A stretch of 34,710 nucleotides of DNA from Saprospiraceae bacterium. Lineage in GTDB: Bacteria > Bacteroidota > Bacteroidia > Chitinophagales > Saprospiraceae. Below, piece by piece: positions 1 to 34,582 of this stretch. The DNA is taken from positions 1 to 34,710 of the forward strand of contig JAHDCK010000009.1 in the NCBI GenBank assembly GCA_020629915.1. Direction: 5' to 3'. Position 1 is the first letter of the stretch, and the number at the start of each line of letters is the position of its first letter. The position numbers were made by a program, and so were the translations under genes. The notes beneath the pieces were generated by a model. The model did no database searches. It saw only the letters and a list, made by a program, of their open reading frames with translations, and was not told the origin of the DNA.

Positions 1-1281
1 CTATTCCCGATTCGCCCTACGAGCCAGCGCATTGATATCAATCGCTTCCTTTTCAATGCGGACGGAATCCATCGTTTTTTTCAGGTATTGCTGCAAGGCC
101 GTTTTGGAGTCTGAGTTGCTCAATGGAGCATAAACCAACAAAACATAGTCATTGCAAACCATCGAAACGTAGTGTTCTTCCTGTAAAGTTCGACCGGTGG
201 CGGTTTTCATATTTTTAAAAGGAGAGTCAAATGTCCAGTAGAGGAATTCCTGACCACTTGATGTTTTTTCGTATTTTTTTTGAATATTTTTTATTTCAAT
301 TCGTTTCTTTTCTTCAATGACTTTCTTTTCATGTTCTAAGTGCTGTTCTAAAATTGTTCTGGTAGAATTATCATTTTTTGTATAAAAATCTTTTAAAGGT
401 GTTACCAGTAATTGCACCACCCGATTATCGGAGAGATAGGTAAATTTATTGATGTGTTTAATGTCCTTTCCGGCTATTTTAACGGAGAAATTCGCCCCGC
501 TTTCATTAAACACCTGTCGGTAACCGCCCCGCACATTGACACTCGCACTTCGATAATTTTTCTTTTGAATCAATGATCCGTTTTCATAAATGCGTTGTTC
601 TATCAGCCGTCCCGTTCTATCCCAAAAACTTGCTTCTCCATCTTCTTTATCTGCTACAAATTTTCCCTCTGATTCTTTCTTCCCATTATCAAACCATTCC
701 CTTGAAATACCGTTTTTTTGCCCGGCTAAGTATTCTCCCTCAAATTTCAGTTTTCCATTTTCGTGGTATTTTTTGATCGTGCCTTCCGCCTTGCCATTCA
801 CGAAGGGAATTTCCTGTTCCAGATTGCCATTTTTATGCCACCACTTGTGGGAACCTTCCTCCATTCCATTGGTAAAAAGTCCTTCCGATTGTTTTTTTCC
901 ATCGGTATAAAATTCCTTGGCCATGCCTTCCAGTGTCCCGTCCACGTAAGAAACTTCCACCTTGACATTGCCATTGTTGTACCATTGGTATTCCGTTCCG
1001 ACCTGCATACCATTCTCGTATTCTGCCTGAAAAATTTTCTCTCCAAACTGATCCCACTCGAAGGCTTTGCCGTGCATTTTTCCATCTTTAAAAGAAATCT
1101 CCCGTTGCTTTTGACCATTGCGATACTTGGAAATCGCCTTGCCGGTAAACGGTGGAATCGTATTTCTCTGAAAATATAATCCTCGGATTTGATCTAATTC
1201 GGAGAGCGGGATTTTTTTATTTTTTTGTCCAAATGCAAAAATAGTAGTCAGGCAAAAAAGGAGAAGAAAGCAATTTTTCAT
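1..1281 (-). CDS. secreted MORN/YwqK-like repeat protein
   Basis: The 426-residue protein starts with a typical signal peptide (basic KN, hydrophobic FLLLFCLTTIFAF, cleavage near FGQ at residue 19), so it is probably exported. Residues about 46-240 are roughly eight copies of a 23-residue unit with the pattern Y-x-N/D-G-x-x-x-x-E-x-x-F-x-x-G-K-x-x-G, the MORN-like repeat seen in 'toxin-antitoxin system YwqK family antitoxin' entries. In Bacteroidota such proteins are usually solitary and the antitoxin name is only inherited annotation. Residues 250-426 form a non-repeat domain with a charged helical stretch near 305-345; I do not recognise it. The stop codon is the first three bases of the window, so the gene is complete. 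No partner toxin is visible. Function unknown. Confidence 0.75.
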   Translation of the reverse strand: MKNCFLLLFCLTTIFAFGQKNKKIPLSELDQIRGLYFQRNTIPPFTGKAISKYRNGQKQREISFKDGKMHGKAFEWDQFGEKIFQAEYENGMQVGTEYQWYNNGNVKVEVSYVDGTLEGMAKEFYTDGKKQSEGLFTNGMEEGSHKWWHKNGNLEQEIPFVNGKAEGTIKKYHENGKLKFEGEYLAGQKNGISREWFDNGKKESEGKFVADKEDGEASFWDRTGRLIEQRIYENGSLIQKKNYRSASVNVRGGYRQVFNESGANFSVKIAGKDIKHINKFTYLSDNRVVQLLVTPLKDFYTKNDNSTRTILEQHLEHEKKVIEEKKRIEIKNIQKKYEKTSSGQEFLYWTFDSPFKNMKTATGRTLQEEHYVSMVCNDYVLLVYAPLSNSDSKTALQQYLKKTMDSVRIEKEAIDINALARRANRE

Positions 1282-20816: not shown

Positions 20817-22469
20817 TTATTTTTTTAGCATCGACTTATATTTGGCCTGATTTTTTAGAATTTTTACTGCTTCCTTGATTTCAGCATCATTTTTCAGCCC
20901 AACTTCAATTTTACCTTTTTGATAATAATATTGTGCAATAATATCCCTTTCCAGAATTTTTAATATTTGAGATTTATACTTGTTTAAGTCGTTGCGCTTA
21001 TCATTTTTCACTTTTTCCTCCATCGCTTTAAGCTGTCCTTCGATTGTACTGAGGTAACCTTCCTCCTCCGCTTTTTTGCGCATACTTTTCAGAGCAGCTT
21101 CTGTTTCTGTATCATAGGAATAATCCTTCGTACTGATGAACCGTCGGAAATCTTCAAAATCCTTATCCGTCAATTGAAACTTAGCTGCGGGTGGAATGCT
21201 ATTGTGTTTTTGGCGATAATCAATGGCAAAATCAAAAAATAAATGTGCTCTTGTTAGTCCACCAATTATTTTTCCATATCGTTCATTGTCAATCGCAATA
21301 TCTGGTTCTACTCCATGACCGTCATAAACCGTTCGACCATTTTGAGTTTTAAAAGCCGTTTTGATAGAATCTGGAATTTCTTCTGCTTTTCCTTCTTTAT
21401 AATTCACGGCTTGGATACATCGCCCACTTGGGATATAATACTTAGAAGTCGTCATTTTTATTTTAGAATTATAACCCACATCACGTGTATTTTGTACCAA
21501 TCCTTTTCCAAAGGAAGTCTGACCAATCAAAACACCCCGATCATAATCCTGCACAACACCGGAAACGATCTCCGAAGCCGAAGCCGAACTTCTGTTTATC
21601 AAAACAACCAGCGGAATATCCGTATCAGAGGCTTTATTCAATGTCTTGAACGTCTTGTCCCAATCCTTGATTTTTCCCTTTGTGCTCACTACTTTTTCTC
21701 CTCTCGGAATGAATATATTTGAAACATTGATCGCTTCCTTCAATAATCCTCCCGTATTTCCACGCAAATCCAGAATCACACTTTTGATATTTTTATCTTT
21801 CTTTAATTCTTTCAAGGCATTTTTTACATTTTTTCCGGCATCCTGGGTAAAAGTCGTCAGAATGATATAACCGACATCTCCCTCAATAGTCGTTTGGAAA
21901 GGCACATTAGGCACGCGAATTTCTGCCCGCTCCAATTTAATACTTACAGGCTTGGACGAGCCTGGGCGTTTGACCTTTACATTGACAGAAGTACCGGGAA
22001 CACCTTTCAGGACCTCAGTAACCTGATCCGTGGTTTTTCCTTTTACAGATTTTCCATCCACTTCCATGATTTGATCTCCGGCTTTCAAACCAGAAGTATG
22101 CGCCGGAAATCCTTCGTAAGGTTCCGTGATAGTGACGTAATCTCCAATTTTCCGAACCAGTGATCCTATCCCTCCATATTTTCCGGTAGTCATATATTTA
22201 AAATCTGCAATGTTTTCTTCCGGGATATAAGTGGTGTAGGGATCGAGGGAGCGAAGCATAGCCCGGATACCGGTCGTCATTAATTCTTCCGGATCGATAT
22301 CATCTACGTAGTAGGTGTTGATCTCTTTATAAAGATTGGTATAAATTTCTATGTTTTTAGCAATCTCAAAATACTTATTATCCTCTCTGTCAGCTGCAAT
22401 TCCAATACCCGCCACTAGAACAATGACCAGCATCCATTTGCATTTTTTTATTATAAAATTAGTATTCAT
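20817..22469 (-). CDS. S41 family C-terminal processing peptidase (copy A)
   Basis: Carboxy-terminal processing proteases (CtpA/Prc) cut proteins from their C-terminal end in the periplasm. The 550-residue protein has an N-terminal membrane/signal helix (about 11-26), the helical region with YYVDDIDPEEL, a PDZ domain near 98-185 (GYGGIGSLV..., GLKAGDQIMEVDG) and the peptidase core. SSASASE gives nucleophile S297, and SFGKG gives Lys base K322, the 25-residue spacing of the family. A helical tail of about 180 residues follows. It is a close paralogue of the gene 34 bases upstream and shares its mRNA. The natural substrate is unknown. Confidence 0.93.
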   Translation of the reverse strand: MNTNFIIKKCKWMLVIVLVAGIGIAADREDNKYFEIAKNIEIYTNLYKEINTYYVDDIDPEELMTTGIRAMLRSLDPYTTYIPEENIADFKYMTTGKYGGIGSLVRKIGDYVTITEPYEGFPAHTSGLKAGDQIMEVDGKSVKGKTTDQVTEVLKGVPGTSVNVKVKRPGSSKPVSIKLERAEIRVPNVPFQTTIEGDVGYIILTTFTQDAGKNVKNALKELKKDKNIKSVILDLRGNTGGLLKEAINVSNIFIPRGEKVVSTKGKIKDWDKTFKTLNKASDTDIPLVVLINRSSASASEIVSGVVQDYDRGVLIGQTSFGKGLVQNTRDVGYNSKIKMTTSKYYIPSGRCIQAVNYKEGKAEEIPDSIKTAFKTQNGRTVYDGHGVEPDIAIDNERYGKIIGGLTRAHLFFDFAIDYRQKHNSIPPAAKFQLTDKDFEDFRRFISTKDYSYDTETEAALKSMRKKAEEEGYLSTIEGQLKAMEEKVKNDKRNDLNKYKSQILKILERDIIAQYYYQKGKIEVGLKNDAEIKEAVKILKNQAKYKSMLKK

Positions 22470-22503
22470 GATATATTTTATTAAAAATAGTGTTTTGGGG
22501 AAA

Positions 22504-24159
22504 TTATTTACTGCCTTTTAAAATACCTTCATAACGAGGCTTATCATCAAAAATTTTCAAAGCTTCCTGGATTTCCGCATCGTTGCGCAACCCAATTTCA
22601 ATTTTACCTTTTTCATAATAATACATCGCAGCAATTTCCTTTTCCAGCAAATCGATAACAACTTCTTTCTGAGCGTTTAGTTCCTTCTCTTTTTCCTGAG
22701 CAATCAGGCGACGAGTGGTTTCCAGATCCGTCTTAATCGCATTATCGTAATTTTCCTTTTCGGCTTTCTTTTCCAATCGCTCCAAAACTTTCTCACTCTT
22801 GGAAGCATAATTATAGCCTTCTTTTTTAATATATGTTTTAAAATCCTGAAAATCTGCATCACTCAAAGTGAAATTCTTCGCATTCGTGATGCTGGCATTT
22901 TTCTCAGCATAATTGACGGCATACTTAAAAATCCAATGTCCCTTAATCAGATGATCAACTAGTTTATTTTCCGCCACATCTTTGACTTTGATATCCGGCA
23001 TCACACCACCGCCATCATAAACAGAACGACCATTTTTGGTTTTGAATTCCGTCCGCAGGGAATCGGAAATATCGGCAGGTTTGCCATCTCGGTAATTCAC
23101 GGATTGAATACACCGTCCACTTGGGATATAATATTTAGCCGTCGTCAGTTTTACCTTAGACTTAAATCCGACATCGCGAGTATTTTGTACCAGTCCTTTC
23201 CCAAAAGATTTTTGTCCAATTAAAACGCCGCGATCCAAATCCTGAATCACACCAGAAACAATCTCCGAAGCGGAAGCCGAATTTTTGTCTATCAAAACCA
23301 CGAGCGGAATCTCCTCATCAATAGGATCGTTCAGTGTCTTAAAATGCTTATCCCACTCCTTGACCTTCCCTCTGGTAGAAACGATCTCTTCGTTTTTAGG
23401 AACAAAAATATTACTGACATTGACAGCTTCTCTCAACAATCCACCCCCATTTCCACGCAGGTCAAAAACCAGTCCTTTCAGTTTGTTATCTTTTTTTAAA
23501 TCCTGGATGGCAGTAGCTACATTTTTCCCGGCATCCATCGTAAAAGTCGTCAGGGTAACGTAGCCAATATCCTCCCGAATCATCCCCTTGTAAGGAACAT
23601 TTGGAATCTTGACTTCTGCCCGATCAATGGTAAGCGATTCTTTTTTACCGTTATTTTTTTCAATTTTTAATTCTACGGAAGAACCCGGTGCCCCGTCAAT
23701 AAACTGCTTGACTTCATCTACCTTCTTTCCTTTGGTCGGCTTACCGTCTATAGATAAAATTTTATCACCCGGTTTCAAGCCAGCCTTTGCTGCCGGAAAT
23801 CCTTCAAGCAGAGAGGAGATAACCACCTCATCATCTTGCAGGTGATAATTCGCACCGATACCACCGAAGCGCCCCGTCATTTTTATGCGATATTCCTCTA
23901 TTTGAGATTCTGCGATATAATTCGTGTAGGGATCGAGTGTTTTGAGCATGGCATCCAGTCCGGTGCGCATGAGCTTACCCGGATCGACTTCATCCACGTA
24001 ATAATTATTCACGTCTTTATAAATCGTCGTGAAAATTTCGATGTTTTTACCAATTTCAAAAAAGCGATTGACAGGTTCTCTAAAAGCGAGGGTTCCCAAT
24101 ACCAGAAAGATGCCAAGGAAGAGCCATTTTCTTCTGGATAAAAATTTGATTTTTTTCAT
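22504..24159 (-). CDS. S41 family C-terminal processing peptidase (copy B)
   Basis: This is the first gene of the tandem pair. The 551 residues have the same order as copy A: N-terminal helix (KWLFLGIFLVLGTLAF), YYVDEVDPGKL, PDZ near 98-182 (GRFGGIGANYHLQDDEVV, GLKPGDKILSIDG), then NSASASE with S296 and SFGKG with K321. Both catalytic residues are intact in both copies, so neither is a dead pseudo-enzyme. The copies are about 60% identical by eye. They differ most in the PDZ ligand groove (SLVRKIGDYVTITEPYEG versus ANYHLQDDEVVISSLLEG), which suggests different C-terminal recognition. Confidence 0.93.
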   Translation of the reverse strand: MKKIKFLSRRKWLFLGIFLVLGTLAFREPVNRFFEIGKNIEIFTTIYKDVNNYYVDEVDPGKLMRTGLDAMLKTLDPYTNYIAESQIEEYRIKMTGRFGGIGANYHLQDDEVVISSLLEGFPAAKAGLKPGDKILSIDGKPTKGKKVDEVKQFIDGAPGSSVELKIEKNNGKKESLTIDRAEVKIPNVPYKGMIREDIGYVTLTTFTMDAGKNVATAIQDLKKDNKLKGLVFDLRGNGGGLLREAVNVSNIFVPKNEEIVSTRGKVKEWDKHFKTLNDPIDEEIPLVVLIDKNSASASEIVSGVIQDLDRGVLIGQKSFGKGLVQNTRDVGFKSKVKLTTAKYYIPSGRCIQSVNYRDGKPADISDSLRTEFKTKNGRSVYDGGGVMPDIKVKDVAENKLVDHLIKGHWIFKYAVNYAEKNASITNAKNFTLSDADFQDFKTYIKKEGYNYASKSEKVLERLEKKAEKENYDNAIKTDLETTRRLIAQEKEKELNAQKEVVIDLLEKEIAAMYYYEKGKIEIGLRNDAEIQEALKIFDDKPRYEGILKGSK

Positions 24160-25085: not shown

Positions 25086-26654
25086 TTATCCATTCATAGA
25101 AATCAGGAACTCCTCATTGCTGCGGGTTCCCTTCATATTTTGCATCATAAACTGCATCGCTTCCTCCGGTTTCATATCGGCAAGGTGACGACGCAGGACG
25201 ATCATGCGCTGCATGACATCCTTATCCAGTAACAGATCTTCCCGACGCGTACTGGATTTGGTAATGTCAATGGCTGGATAGATTCGCTTGTTGGATAAGC
25301 CTCGATCCAGTTGTAGCTCCATATTTCCTGTTCCTTTAAATTCCTCAAAAATCACCTCGTCCATTCTGGAACCGGTATCGATCAAGGCCGTAGCGAGGAT
25401 GGTCAGAGAACCACCTTTTTCAATGTTTCGGGCTGCTCCGAAGAATTGTTTTGGCTTGTGCAAAGCATTCGCTTCCACACCACCGGAAAGTACTTTTCCA
25501 CTAGCAGGAGCTACCGTATTGTAAGCTCTGGCCAATCGCGTAATGGAATCCAAAAGGATAACTACATCGTGACCACTTTCTACCATACGCTTGGCTTTCT
25601 CAAGCACAACGTTGGCTACGCGAACATGGCGTTCTGCTGGTTCGTCAAAAGTAGAAGCAACGACCTCTGCACGAACACTTCTCTTCATATCCGTCACCTC
25701 TTCCGGACGCTCATCGATCAGCAAAATGATCAAATAACACTCCGGGTGATTCGCTGCCACGGCATTGGCAATATCTTTCAATAAAAATGTTTTACCCGTT
25801 TTAGGTTGGGCAACGATTAATCCACGCTGTCCTTTTCCTATTGGGGTAAACAAATCTATCAATCGGGTAGAATACTGATTGGGTTTTCCCTGAAGGTTGA
25901 ATTTTTCATCCGGAAAAAGTGGTGTCAGGTAATCAAAAGGAACCCGATCTCTAATTTTGAGCGGTTCTACTCCATTGATTCTGGAAACCTTTAAAAGGGC
26001 AAAATATTTCTCGCCTTCCTTTGGCGGGCGGATAGCTCCCTGGATAGTATCTCCGGTTTTTAACCCAAATAATTTTATTTGAGAAGGAGAAACATAAATA
26101 TCATCGGGAGAAGTCAGGTAGTTAAAATCAGAAGAACGCAAAAATCCATATCCATCCGGCATCATTTCCAGGATACCTTCTCCTTCAATAACACCGTCGA
26201 GTTCAATATTAAAACGTGGAGGTTCTGGTTTAGATTCTGTTCGGGGTTCTGATCTGGTTTCTTCCCGATAATCTTCTTTTTCTTTGCGAGGTTTTCTGAT
26301 AGGTTTTTCTTCTTCTTGTTCTACTGGTTTTTCTCTTTTGCGACTACGGGGTTTAGGAGCTTCTTCTTCCTCTTTTTCAGGCTTCTCCTCCTCTTTTGGT
26401 GCTTCTTTTTCTTCCGAAGCATCTGAGGCGACCCGTTTGCGGCGCTTTCTTTTTGGTTTTTCCTCAGCCGCCTCTTTCTTTTTGGGCGCATCATCTGCTT
26501 CGGCAGCTTCTTTTCCTGCAATAGCTTGATAATCAAGGATTTTATATATTAAATCCTGCTTGTTGAGTTTTTTGTAACCTTTGATCTCGAGTTTGTCTGC
26601 GATTTCCTTTAGTTCAGGAACCAGCATCTCATTGAGTTGTAATATGTCGTACAT
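25086..26654 (-). CDS. rho: transcription termination factor Rho with charged N-terminal insertion
   Basis: Rho is the hexameric RNA translocase that ends transcription. Domains of the 522-residue protein: the Rho N-terminal helix bundle (1-45; [30 protein letters not shown]), a low-complexity K/E/P/R insertion at about 48-147, the cold-shock-type primary RNA site near 150-225 ([22 protein letters not shown]), Walker A QPKTGKTF (283-290), Walker [17 protein letters not shown], the Q-loop [23 protein letters not shown] and the R-loop/arginine finger region [11 protein letters not shown]. Normal Rho is near 420 residues, so the extra length is the insertion. Such charged insertions occur in Bacteroidota and Actinobacteria and can bind RNA or drive phase separation. 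A long leader precedes the gene. Confidence 0.97.
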
Positions 26655-29717: not shown

Positions 29718-29882
29718 ATGCTAAAAAATGAAAGAACCGCATAAGGCTCCCATAAAAAATAACTCATTTTTTAATTTATTCGTTCCCTTTACAGCTAAAA
29801 AATCATTTTTTTGTAAAAACAGGCAGCAAATTTGTATTATAGAACGTATTACAGGTAAGCGACGACAGTACACGTCCCCATA

Positions 29883-29953: not shown

Positions 29954-30532
29954 ATGAACTCTATGGATTTTGCTCTGAAACTGCGCAATCAGGAGCGAGA
30001 CTTGATAGCGGCCTGCATCCGAAAAGAACGTTCGGCTCAGAAGACCCTCTACGAAACTTACTACGGTAAGATGATGGGAGTCTGCCTGAGATATGCGAAC
30101 AACTCGGAAGATGCCCGGGATATTTTGCATGAAGGGTTTATTAAAATTTTTAATAACCTGCATAAATATAAACCGGACAACACTTCCATCGGTGCATGGA
30201 TTCATCGCATCATGGTCAATACCTGTATCGATTATTATCGAAAAAGCATCCGACGCAGAACAGAGAATATCGAAATGGTGGCCGAACGGCGAAGCACAGA
30301 AGCTGACGCCGTCAGTCAATACAGCGAAAAGGAAATCCTGCAAGCTGTTCAACAATTATCCCCGGCATACAGAGCTGTTTTTAATCTCTATGCCATCGAG
30401 GGATACCAACACAAAGAGATTGCTGAACAATTACAAATTACAGAAAGTACTTCTCGTTCTAATTTAGTTAAGGCCAGAACGAAACTTAAAGATATATTAG
30501 TGCGTAAATACGCTTATGGACAAGAATTATGA
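29954..30532 (+). CDS. RNA polymerase ECF-type sigma-70 factor
   Basis: An alternative sigma factor of 192 residues. Region 2 (about 28-100) contains LYETYYGKMMGVCLRYANNSEDARDILHEGFIKIF, NTSIGAWIHRIMVNTCIDYYRK. Region 4 (about 128-178) contains LSPAYRAVFNLYAIEGYQHKEIAEQLQITESTSRSNLVKARTKL, the helix-turn-helix that reads the -35 element. ATG 29954 (MNSMDFALKL) is used because the promoter lies just upstream; ATG 29963 is an equal alternative. The 3' end overlaps the next gene by 17 bases, a sign of translational coupling with its likely regulator. In Bacteroidota such sigma factors often answer to envelope or nutrient signals, but the target regulon cannot be predicted here. Confidence 0.93.
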   Translation: MNSMDFALKLRNQERDLIAACIRKERSAQKTLYETYYGKMMGVCLRYANNSEDARDILHEGFIKIFNNLHKYKPDNTSIGAWIHRIMVNTCIDYYRKSIRRRTENIEMVAERRSTEADAVSQYSEKEILQAVQQLSPAYRAVFNLYAIEGYQHKEIAEQLQITESTSRSNLVKARTKLKDILVRKYAYGQEL

Positions 30533-32354
30533 ACATATTGATCATCTAGCTAAGGAAGCGCTCTCCAATTTGGAAGTGCCGTTCAATCCGTCGGATTGGG
30601 CGAGCATGGAGGCTGCCCTTCACCAAGCCGAACTCATGGCAGGTGAGGAGATGGATAGTCTTGTTCGCAATTCTATTGGTCAGTCCGAACATCCGGAACT
30701 GGCTCCTGATTTTGCTGCACTCGAAGCAGACTTGTTTGCTGCGGAGGTGGAAGCAGGAGAAGGACTGGACAGTATGGTTAGAAATTCCATCGGACAATCG
30801 GAGCATCCCGAACTGGCTCCCGACTGGTCAGAGATGGAAGCAGCACTGGATAAAGCGGATGTCGCTGCCGGGGAGGAAATGGATGCGCTGGTTCGGAAAA
30901 CAATTGGTAAAATGGAGGTGGCAGAAGTGGCTGGTTGGGCTGCGTTGGCTGCTTCATTAGATAAAATAGATGCCTTAGAGCCTCAAAATATTGACGCAAC
31001 AGTCAAAGAGGCGATTGGTGATATGGAAGCTCCTTACAATGATGCCGAATGGCAGGCGATGGAGCAGGAGTTGACGGAAGATATGCTCGCTCGTCAGCGG
31101 ACATATTTTATAAAAGGAGTAGAAATACTTTTAGTCATATTGAGTATTTACACCTTGTTCCAGTTTGTTGATTTCAGAATGCCGGTTTCCAAGCCGAATC
31201 CGGTGACAAAACCTGCGACGACAGAACCTGTTGCCACACTTGAAAATACTACAACAAATTCTATTCTAAATAAGAAGGTAACAGAAGAAAATGCTTCTGT
31301 TGATACCGATAAAACAACCACTGTCCTTACGGAGAAGGAAAATCATTTAAATACGACAACAACAATCGCTTCTGCTGCTACAAAAGAGGAAGCATCTGTT
31401 GTACAAAATATCATTCCTCCTGCGCCACCGGCTTCGCAGACACTGAATGGAGAAAACTCCGATCAGGCGAAATTCATTCCGGTTGCAGTGAAAGAGGAAG
31501 CACCTGAAAAATCACCCACACCTGAAATTTTTATTCCGAAAGCTGAAAATAAAAAGGCGATAATCGCTGCTGTTCAGCAACCTAAAAATTTCTTCCCGAG
31601 TACATCTATTCCAAATTGGAACGCCCAGATTATTTCACCGGAAACAGGTTTAAACTTATTTAGCCTGATGACGGATAACCCTGAATCTAAACAGCATGTT
31701 GTGCGTAAGTTTTCGATCGGTATTCTGGCATCACCTGATTTTAATCGAGTGTCCAATCATGCATTTTCTGGCAGCACGGCTAGCCACAACGAAATAGGTT
31801 ATTCACTCGGATTGAATGCGGAGTATCAACTGAACTCCAAATTTGGATTGGGATTAGGTGCGCTATATTCCAAAAAGAATTATACTCCGCTCCTTTCCGA
31901 GGATATTTTAATAGAATCTGCGGGTGCTGAAATCGCAGGTTTTGGTAGAATTGTCAATGCAGCAGAACTGGAAATCATCGAAATTCCAGTATATGCAAAA
32001 ATGACGATGACTGAAACGCCGGGACTAAAAACATTTGCTGTCTTTGGGGGAAGTAGTCATTTTGTAATCAAATCAAACTACGACACCGAAACGGTAAACA
32101 CTCTTCCAGGTGCATCAGCAAGAGTTGTTTTCCGCGATTTGGTTGTCAATGACGAAGAAGGCTTACTGGAAGGTGGAAACTTTAATAGCAATCATTTTTA
32201 TACAGCAAATTTAGGTATCGGCATCGAGAAAAAACTCAATCGTGTGATTCTCTTTACACAGCCAACCTACCGCATAGGTTTTGGAAAAGTTGGGCCGAAT
32301 GATCATAATATCAGCACTTTCTCTATCCTTGGAGGATTTAGAATTGGATTTTAA
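30516..32354 (+). CDS. repeat/TM/beta-barrel protein coupled to ECF sigma (putative envelope-spanning anti-sigma)
   Basis: A 612-residue protein with a distinctive order. Residues 7-196 hold five copies of a roughly 38-residue acidic unit (D-x-x-V-R-x-x-I-G-x-x-E-x-P...D-W-x-x-M-E-A-x-L); the first and last are most divergent. One hydrophobic helix is at about 199-219 (GVEILLVILSIYTLFQFV). Residues 220-390 are a Thr/Pro/Glu-rich linker. Residues 397-612 alternate amphipathic strands and end SILGGFRIGF, an outer-membrane-barrel type C-terminus with final Phe. The repeats resemble the short W-x-x-M/I-x-x-x-L helix motif in anti-sigma proteins paired with Bacteroidota ECF factors. Start ATG 30516 overlaps the sigma gene. 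No signal peptide, so the N-terminal repeats should be cytoplasmic. Function is inferred from context. Confidence 0.7.
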   Translation: MDKNYEHIDHLAKEALSNLEVPFNPSDWASMEAALHQAELMAGEEMDSLVRNSIGQSEHPELAPDFAALEADLFAAEVEAGEGLDSMVRNSIGQSEHPELAPDWSEMEAALDKADVAAGEEMDALVRKTIGKMEVAEVAGWAALAASLDKIDALEPQNIDATVKEAIGDMEAPYNDAEWQAMEQELTEDMLARQRTYFIKGVEILLVILSIYTLFQFVDFRMPVSKPNPVTKPATTEPVATLENTTTNSILNKKVTEENASVDTDKTTTVLTEKENHLNTTTTIASAATKEEASVVQNIIPPAPPASQTLNGENSDQAKFIPVAVKEEAPEKSPTPEIFIPKAENKKAIIAAVQQPKNFFPSTSIPNWNAQIISPETGLNLFSLMTDNPESKQHVVRKFSIGILASPDFNRVSNHAFSGSTASHNEIGYSLGLNAEYQLNSKFGLGLGALYSKKNYTPLLSEDILIESAGAEIAGFGRIVNAAELEIIEIPVYAKMTMTETPGLKTFAVFGGSSHFVIKSNYDTETVNTLPGASARVVFRDLVVNDEEGLLEGGNFNSNHFYTANLGIGIEKKLNRVILFTQPTYRIGFGKVGPNDHNISTFSILGGFRIGF

Positions 32355-32387: not shown

Positions 32388-32424
32388 AAAACAGCAAGGA
32401 ATTCGCCTTGCTGTTTTTTTATTT
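32388..32424 (+). terminator. terminator after the sigma operon
   Basis: AAAACAGCAAGG (32388-32399) pairs perfectly with 32406-32417 around a six-base loop, followed by TTTATTTT. It closes the two-gene sigma operon and separates it from the TPR gene. Confidence 0.85.
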
Positions 32425-32485: not shown

Positions 32486-34582
32486 ATGGCCAAGCAATCC
32501 AGAAAAAATCCTAAGAAACAACAAAGAAAACGGGAAACGACTTCCCCCAAATTTTCCATTCCTGCCGGACAGCCTGCGTTCCTGACGGATTCCAAAATGC
32601 ACGTTTTGATCATCGCGCTTTTGGGCTTTTTGTTATACGCCAATACGCTGACCCATGATTTTACACTGGATGATGCCATTGTCATTACGGATAATATGTT
32701 TACAAAAAAAGGGGTGGCAGGCATTCCGGATATTTTGAGTAAGGATACTTTTTTTGGCTTTTTTAAAGACCAGAAAAATCTCGTAGCCGGTGGTCGTTAC
32801 CGTCCTTTTACATTGGTGATGTTCGCTTTTGAGTATCAGCTTTTTGGTCAAACGCCTTTTATTTATCATTTGATAAATATTTTGTTGTATTGTCTTACGG
32901 GAATTGTATTGTATTTTTTATTATTAAAATTATTAAACCCTCAAAAAAACCCGGCCAATCTCTACGCATACTTCGTTGCCTTTGTTGCTGCACTTTTATA
33001 CGTGGCGCATCCTATCCATACAGAGGCCGTGGCCAATATCAAGGGACGGGATGAAATCATGACCTTGTTGTGTAGCTTGGGTGCCTTGTATTATTCGCTG
33101 AGAGCTTATTATGAAAAAGCCAATAAGTGGACGATTGTAGCAGCCGTTCTGTTTTTTATCGGGCTGATGTCCAAGGAGAATGCCATTACTTTTTTGGCGG
33201 TTGTTCCTCTGGCGTTTTATGTTTTTACTAACGCAAAGATGGGAGATATTATCAAACAGACGATTCCTTTTGTCGGAGTAGCTATTTTGTTTTTAATAAT
33301 TAGAACTGCTGTGATTGGCCTTGGAGGAAGTGTGGGAACAGAGGTGAAGGAATTGATGAATAATCCATATTTAAAAATTGTAGATGGAAAATACGTGGCT
33401 TATTCCGTTTCCGAACGCCTGGGGACGATTTTTTATACATTGGGAAAATATATACAACTATTAGTGTTCCCACATCCACTGACGAATGATTATTATCCCC
33501 GACAGATTGCGATGTATTCCCTGGGAAGTTGGCAGGTGGTTTTGATTGTTTTAGGTTATCTGGCAGCAGCGGGATATGCTATTTGGGGATTGCTCAAGAA
33601 GCAGCATATTGCTTTTGGAATCGCGTTTTATATTATAACACTTTCTATTGTTTCAAATATCGTGTTCCCGATTGGAACGAATATGTCGGAGCGATTTATG
33701 TTTATGCCTTCAGTTGGGTTTTGTTTTATAGTCGCTATTTTATTATATAAATTAGCGCAACTTATTTCTAAAAAGGAAAATTTAAATTTTAATGATATAA
33801 AAATTCCGCTTGGAATTTTGGGGGTTGTTTTGTTGCTTTTTGCAGGAAAAACCATTACCAGAAATTTCGTCTGGCAGGATAATAAAACGCTTTTCCTGAC
33901 GGACGTTCATGCCTCCACCAATAGTGCAAAAGCTCTAAATGCCGCAGGAGGAGAATCCGTCACCCAAGCCATAAAACCAGAGAATAGTGCGAATAAGGAA
34001 AAGATGTTACGGGATGGAATTGGGTATTTGGATAAGGCGATAAAAATTCATCCTACGTATAAAAATGCTTACTTGCTCCTTGGAAATGCGCACACCTATT
34101 TGGAAGAATACGACAAGGCTATTCCTCGTTTTGAACAAGCATTGCGGATTGATCCAAAATATAAAGATGCCCTTTTGAATATGGGTGTTGCCTGCCGGGG
34201 TGCAGAAAAATATGATGATGCAATAAAATATCATAAAAAGGCATACGAATTACATGGCACGAAATTTCCGGTAACAAAAAAGACGCTTTTGGAAACTTAT
34301 CGCTTTGCCGGGGAGTTCTTTGGTAAGAAGGGACAATTAGATAAATCGATCAATTTGCTTTTGGAAGCTTTAAAGCTGGCTCCGAATGATGCGCCAACCA
34401 TGCGAACGCTGGGTACGGCCTACGGAATCCGGCAAGAAACACAAAAGGCTATTGACATATTCGAAAAATCTTTGAAAATTGAACCCAATCACGCGCCTAC
34501 GTTTAAAAACCTGAGTATTGCTTACGGCGTCCTCGGCAATCAGGCCAAAGCCGCCGAATACGCTCAAAAAGCAAACCAATAA
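32486..34582 (+). CDS. TMTC-like multi-pass membrane protein with C-terminal TPRs
   Basis: A 698-residue protein. A basic N-terminus (AKQSRKNPKKQQRKRE) precedes about 10-11 membrane helices (residues ~36-455), including the GT-C-like first loop TLDDAIVITDN with adjacent Asp residues and the loop AHPIHTEAVANIKGRDE. The C-terminal about 200 residues are tetratricopeptide repeats (AYLLLGNAHTYLEEYDKAIPRFEQAL, ALLNMGVACRGAEKYDDAIKYHKKA and further copies). The layout matches the TMTC family, whose eukaryotic members O-mannosylate cadherins; bacterial members are annotated as TPR proteins and their acceptor is unknown to me. The TPR part should lie on the same side as the acceptor. It follows a terminator, so it is probably monocistronic. 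Confidence 0.75.
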   Translation: MAKQSRKNPKKQQRKRETTSPKFSIPAGQPAFLTDSKMHVLIIALLGFLLYANTLTHDFTLDDAIVITDNMFTKKGVAGIPDILSKDTFFGFFKDQKNLVAGGRYRPFTLVMFAFEYQLFGQTPFIYHLINILLYCLTGIVLYFLLLKLLNPQKNPANLYAYFVAFVAALLYVAHPIHTEAVANIKGRDEIMTLLCSLGALYYSLRAYYEKANKWTIVAAVLFFIGLMSKENAITFLAVVPLAFYVFTNAKMGDIIKQTIPFVGVAILFLIIRTAVIGLGGSVGTEVKELMNNPYLKIVDGKYVAYSVSERLGTIFYTLGKYIQLLVFPHPLTNDYYPRQIAMYSLGSWQVVLIVLGYLAAAGYAIWGLLKKQHIAFGIAFYIITLSIVSNIVFPIGTNMSERFMFMPSVGFCFIVAILLYKLAQLISKKENLNFNDIKIPLGILGVVLLLFAGKTITRNFVWQDNKTLFLTDVHASTNSAKALNAAGGESVTQAIKPENSANKEKMLRDGIGYLDKAIKIHPTYKNAYLLLGNAHTYLEEYDKAIPRFEQALRIDPKYKDALLNMGVACRGAEKYDDAIKYHKKAYELHGTKFPVTKKTLLETYRFAGEFFGKKGQLDKSINLLLEALKLAPNDAPTMRTLGTAYGIRQETQKAIDIFEKSLKIEPNHAPTFKNLSIAYGVLGNQAKAAEYAQKANQ

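Follow-up and report, generated by a model that had tools for sequence, protein, structure and literature searches.

Gene layout

Can a single polypeptide report the state of the outer membrane to a cytoplasmic sigma factor? The question is raised by two overlapping genes in a stretch of 34,710 nucleotides from a Saprospiraceae bacterium (contig JAHDCK010000009.1, here called the window in its whole length), in which an initial annotation had noticed an ECF sigma factor gene ending 17 bases inside a gene whose product appeared to fuse an anti-sigma factor to an outer-membrane barrel. The coordinates of the two open reading frames agree with that overlap (30516-30532; Table 1). The sigma factor matches the Pfam models Sigma70_r2 (6e-17) and Sigma70_r4_2 (2e-16) and, because M4 is nearly invariant in the family alignment, the ATG at 29963 (MDFALKL) is an equally good start.

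Given the promoter-like motif upstream of the sigma gene and the terminator-like hairpin that follows the second gene, the pair resembles a single small transcription unit; the region has 10 terminator-like sites, vs. 3.1 in shuffled sequence. Just past the terminator (32486-34582) is encoded a 698-aa membrane protein with a match to PMT_2 (mannosyltransferase) and C-terminal TPR repeats. Elsewhere in the window, on the minus strand, two PDZ/S41 peptidases, adjoining paralogues, stand in tandem (20817-24159), and a Rho factor (25086-26654) has a long Lys/Glu/Arg-rich insert that separates its N-terminal domain from the RNA-binding domain.

Table 1. Features of the sigma/anti-sigma locus (positions in the window; residues of the anti-sigma protein).
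Feature	Position	Residues	Strand	Basis
Predicted autoregulatory ECF promoter	29822..29848		+	GGCAGCA (29822-29828), 16-base spacer, CGTA (29845-29848)
ECF sigma factor, 192 aa	29954..30532		+	Sigma70_r2 / Sigma70_r4_2; ATG 29954, stop 30530-30532; start alternatively 29963
Anti-sigma/barrel gene, 612 codons	30516..32354		+	ATG 30516, stop 32352-32354; 17 bp overlap with sigma gene; Pfam, AlphaFold2, homologue neighbours
Anti-sigma unit 1	30534..30620	7-35	+	Strong, 37.4 bits to unit HMM
Anti-sigma unit 2	30648..30734	45-73	+	Degenerate (F replaces W), 3.9 bits; refined HMM <2 bits
Anti-sigma unit 3	30762..30848	83-111	+	Weak, 9.0 bits over 88-111
Anti-sigma unit 4	30876..30959	121-148	+	Weak, 4.5 bits over 121-144 (refined HMM 5.2 bits)
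Anti-sigma unit 5	30987..31073	158-186	+	Strong, membrane-proximal, 30.8 bits
Single inner-membrane helix	31119..31175	202-220	+	Hydropathy 1.92; AlphaFold2 helix 176-217
Disordered periplasmic tether (predicted)	31179..31703	222-396	+	234-393 nearly all pLDDT <50
C-terminal 8-stranded outer-membrane barrel (predicted)	31704..32351	397-612	+	PF13568, AlphaFold2, VIA-align
Hairpin and T run, intrinsic-terminator-like	32388..32417		+	12-pair stem, directly 3' of anti-sigma gene

Architecture of the anti-sigma protein

The N-terminal part was described with a profile HMM of the repeated unit, trained only on the N-termini of 36 single-unit homologues and with the window protein excluded. It finds five units of about 38 residues in the window protein, and its matches over 35 proteins amount to 76, as compared to 0.1 in shuffled N-termini. 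Units 2 and 3 are identical at 26 of 38 residues, residues 1-190 carry a net charge of -35, and W179 in unit 5 is invariant across 43 homologues. The five short acidic repeats of the initial annotation are thereby recovered, though as unequal copies, units 2-4 scoring 4-9 bits vs. 37 for unit 1 and 31 for unit 5. A refined HMM (window protein again excluded from training, threshold 2 bits) counts four units, and its loss of unit 2 marks the middle units as weak; their degeneracy makes five working sigma-binding sites doubtful, and in this protein units 1 and 5 have the best prospect of being functional. The absence of a signal peptide is judged solely from the acidic, hydrophilic N-terminus.

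Two-helix units are predicted both in the AlphaFold2 model of the window protein, built on an alignment of 43 sequences, and in that of a homologue in which a single stop codon separates the sigma gene from an anti-sigma gene in the same frame. The read-through fold of the latter, comprising the sigma factor and two units, has a pTM of 0.51 and an uneven confidence in the units, with pLDDT of about 80-89 for unit 1 and 63-86 for unit 2. A sequence search of solved structures with the anti-sigma profile gave nothing relevant.

Beyond the units, the protein has one hydrophobic segment, which lies within a long predicted helix and matches the central membrane helix of the initial annotation. E203, at its start, is nearly invariant in 21 homologues, and the flanking charges, +1 on the N-terminal side and +3 on the C-terminal side, are insufficient on their own to settle the topology. 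The tether that follows, 175 residues in the window protein, measures 169 +/- 21 residues (119-212) across 43 homologues at 10.7% identity; its length is thus kept while its sequence is free, as expected of a tether.

For the C-terminal part, which had been noted as rich in strands, the evidence converges on a barrel. PF13568 (OMP_b-brl_2) matches residues 393-550 above cut-off (E 2.3e-6), and 34 of the 43 aligned homologues match the model too. AlphaFold2, which places helices in the N-terminal part, builds eight long strands over 399-611, most at pLDDT 90-98, and VIA-align relates residues 394-612 to the barrels of OmpA, NspA, OmpW and OprF with Z of 16-19. The domain is therefore confidently predicted as an 8-stranded barrel of the OmpA/OmpW type, and the 612-residue protein modelled alone, a check proposed with the initial annotation, has it in residues 397-612. 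A TonB-dependent receptor was discarded as a reading, the barrel having 8 strands and 216 residues within the same polypeptide, and so was FecR, no such domains appearing in the Pfam search.

Conservation beside the sigma gene

Among the homologues retrieved by anti-sigma sequence, all 63 distinct ones have a sigma gene immediately upstream, many of them overlapping, so that sequence, homologues and confident fold agree on the fusion of anti-sigma and barrel beside a sigma gene that had been suspected from the window. The sigma factor is well conserved and the anti-sigma is not, mean pairwise identity being 21% for the anti-sigma and about 60% for the sigma factor (n = 19 family members). A match to the anti-sigma occurs in 188 of the 190 near-complete genomes drawn from the window's family and in 73 of the 247 drawn from the phylum as a whole; near-universal in the family and present in about one third of the phylum sample, the protein looks like a widespread reporter of outer-membrane state to RNA polymerase. 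Loci from named genomes were retrieved through the sigma factor, and in one of them, from a Saprospiraceae assembly (L106), the anti-sigma has the same length and start as in family genome G137, which makes Saprospiraceae the probable family of the sampled genomes.

The full-length protein might nonetheless be short-lived, its tether being cleaved soon after synthesis to leave two proteins, a conventional anti-sigma and a small barrel of the outer membrane. A disordered and unconserved tether would be accessible to proteases, and a short anti-sigma with the same units and helix and no barrel is encoded in the same genome. Yet a protein that does not span the envelope would not need a tether held at 119-212 residues in 43 homologues, and the fusion is retained in 63 of 63 loci, which makes such processing improbable.

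Predicted promoter

The motif GCAGCR-N16-CGT stands 5' of the sigma gene at 26 of the 34 family loci. The full scan of 61 loci brings the count to 27 with one further locus, L081, and the motif was not found in the more distant relatives scanned. The spacing is always 16, though 14-18 was permitted, and chance would give 0.27 of 61 loci. From this recurrence in the sequences, the motif is probably the autoregulatory promoter of the sigma genes; its conservation offers a direct read-out of the system and a handle on its signal.

Across the bacterium's own genome the pattern has 12 matches, that of the sigma gene among them, vs. 13 for a reversed control, and besides the sigma gene two are intergenic and upstream of a sizeable ORF (C32:2907 and C48:3819). 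Since there is no genome-wide excess over the control, the reading of a regulon from the pattern was dropped and autoregulation alone is claimed. In genomes of relatives the pattern is often commoner than its reversed control; the same excess is seen in genomes of the same order, from other families, that lack any strong anti-sigma match, and the genome-wide counts in relatives are therefore uninformative.

Comparison with known pairs and proposed mechanism

In the FecI-FecR-FecA system the state of the outer membrane reaches a cytoplasmic sigma factor through an inner-membrane anti-sigma, a route that we would also assign to the window pair. The FecA barrel, however, is a separate TonB-dependent receptor, 22-stranded and plugged, whereas that of the window is 8-stranded and fused to the anti-sigma. 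The short class II anti-sigma CnrY has no barrel and differs in this from the window protein. In the CnrY-CnrH pair of Cupriavidus, the two anti-sigma helices hold sigma4 and sigma2, one each (PMC7406223). The very short two-helix units of the window protein resemble CnrY in size and predicted helices alone.

A fused anti-sigma and barrel next to a sigma gene is already known from gut Bacteroides, where Reo and Dma1-3 were described in 2022-2024. Dma1 was reportedly named in a 2024 paper. The EcfO-Reo pairs of Bacteroides fragilis and Phocaeicola vulgatus consist of a sigma gene followed by the gene of an anti-sigma that reaches from the cytoplasm to the outer surface and ends in a C-terminal barrel, and in P. 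vulgatus loss of the anti-sigma turns on the sigma regulon (PMC9308784; PMC13114119). The pairs Dma1/Das1 and Dma2/Das2 are described as governing vesiculation in B. thetaiotaomicron, and Dma1-3 as having an anti-sigma part at the N-terminus and a barrel at the C-terminus, with one helix and a tether between them (PMC13088901). For this layout in general, the sigma factor was shown to be set free once the anti-sigma is lost (PMC9308784; PMC13114119; PMC13088901). Compared by description, the window pair shares with EcfO-Reo the order of sigma gene and barrel-ended anti-sigma, and with Dma1-3 the anti-sigma domain, single helix, long disordered tether, C-terminal barrel, adjoining ECF sigma gene and membership in Bacteroidota. 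It departs from Reo, as far as that is described, by its N-terminal repeats, and from the available Dma descriptions by its tandem units (five in the window, 1-5 in the family); the sigma group given there for Dma is ECF21.

We consider it very probable (about 0.85) that the locus encodes an autoregulated ECF sigma factor and a dual membrane-spanning anti-sigma of the Reo/Dma type, from which sigma is released when the outer membrane is disturbed. From the position of the units, their helix pattern and their exclusive company with sigma genes we infer that they bind the sigma factor. The anti-sigma would insert in the inner membrane by its single helix with the N-terminus in the cytoplasm, where the two-helix units would hold the sigma factor much as CnrY and other class II anti-sigmas do, while the disordered tether would span the periplasm and the 8-stranded barrel would sit in the outer membrane. 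With an assembled barrel and an unbroken chain, sigma would be kept at the inner membrane; if the outer membrane were disturbed, or the assembly of the barrel, the chain would change state or be cut, and the freed sigma would then use the promoter GGCAGCA-N16-CGT to transcribe the operon that encodes it.

A sharper form of this mechanism, and compatible with it, takes the barrel as a sentinel client of BAM that, if left unassembled, exposes the tether to a periplasmic protease and so frees sigma. We regard it, together with its corollary that barrel assembly is sensed and no external ligand, as tentative, at slightly less than even odds. The barrel is small and 8-stranded, as would suit such a client, and two antibacterial toxins, of which one is a bacteriocin that binds BamA, strongly induce the related P. 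vulgatus pair (PMC9308784; PMC13114119), which favours sensing of assembly or integrity. The window sequence, however, fits assembly sensing and ligand sensing alike, and for Dma2 its authors propose glycan sensing (PMC13088901).

Copy number of the anti-sigma unit

Tandem anti-sigma domains in Bacteroidota were not described in the literature searched, and what is new here is a countable N-terminal module that, as judged by profile matches, is single outside the family and present in 1-5 copies within it. With the refined HMM, which counts the window protein as four, 36, 19, 10, 3 and 3 of 71 proteins have 1, 2, 3, 4 and 5 units, respectively, and the relatives from outside the family have one each. 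On the sigma tree, with the window taken as five, the number changes at least 16 times. This count is rough, the tree having little resolution (stars on 5 of its 38 inner branches). Two sister rows, L077 and L078, have 5 and 3 units despite close sigma factors, which indicates that repeat number changes quickly.

The extra units may bind extra sigma, raise avidity or be relics; within the mechanism proposed above they would probably add to the number or avidity of the sites that hold sigma. It is possible, at somewhat less than even odds, that they are neutral spacers or decayed duplicates and that sigma is bound by the membrane-proximal unit alone; this would accord with the 4-9 bits of units 2-4, with the invariance of W179 in the last unit of 43 homologues and with the fact that all relatives scanned outside the family manage with one unit. 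Decay is harder to reconcile with two relatives (L061 and L063) that retain five strong units of 24-42 bits each, or with unit 1 of the window protein, which is as strong as unit 5. That tandem copies let one membrane-anchored molecule hold several sigma factors, or one with high avidity, is a more doubtful proposition, and the degenerate middle units of the window protein speak against five equal sites. If it were true, sigma could be released by degrees or at a threshold as the outer membrane changes state, with unit copy number as an evolving set-point. One to five copies beside an otherwise conserved sigma factor offer a natural series for asking whether anti-sigma valency sets the response threshold of an ECF system.

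Related pairs in the same genome

The bacterium's own genome has 35 sigma-70/ECF matches above the family cut-off. Units are borne by 6 of 140 ORFs of at least 100 aa at 30 ECF loci, all directly 3' of a sigma gene, and in 6 of the 28 loci examined that have a sigma ORF a unit-carrying gene comes next. One of these loci (L185 on another contig, C520; 2744-3998) is a second sigma pair, whose anti-sigma of 230 aa has two units and the helix and no room for a barrel. Units and helix thus appear as the part that these anti-sigmas share, to which the barrel is joined as one among several ends.

Other ECF genes are followed by putative anti-sigmas of 460-490 aa, some of them cut by the end of the locus (L200, L201, L205, L211, L214, L215 and L218). 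L201 matches the Pfam barrel model above cut-off and L218 falls just under it, and judging from such sequences several Dma-like proteins are probably encoded in the genome.
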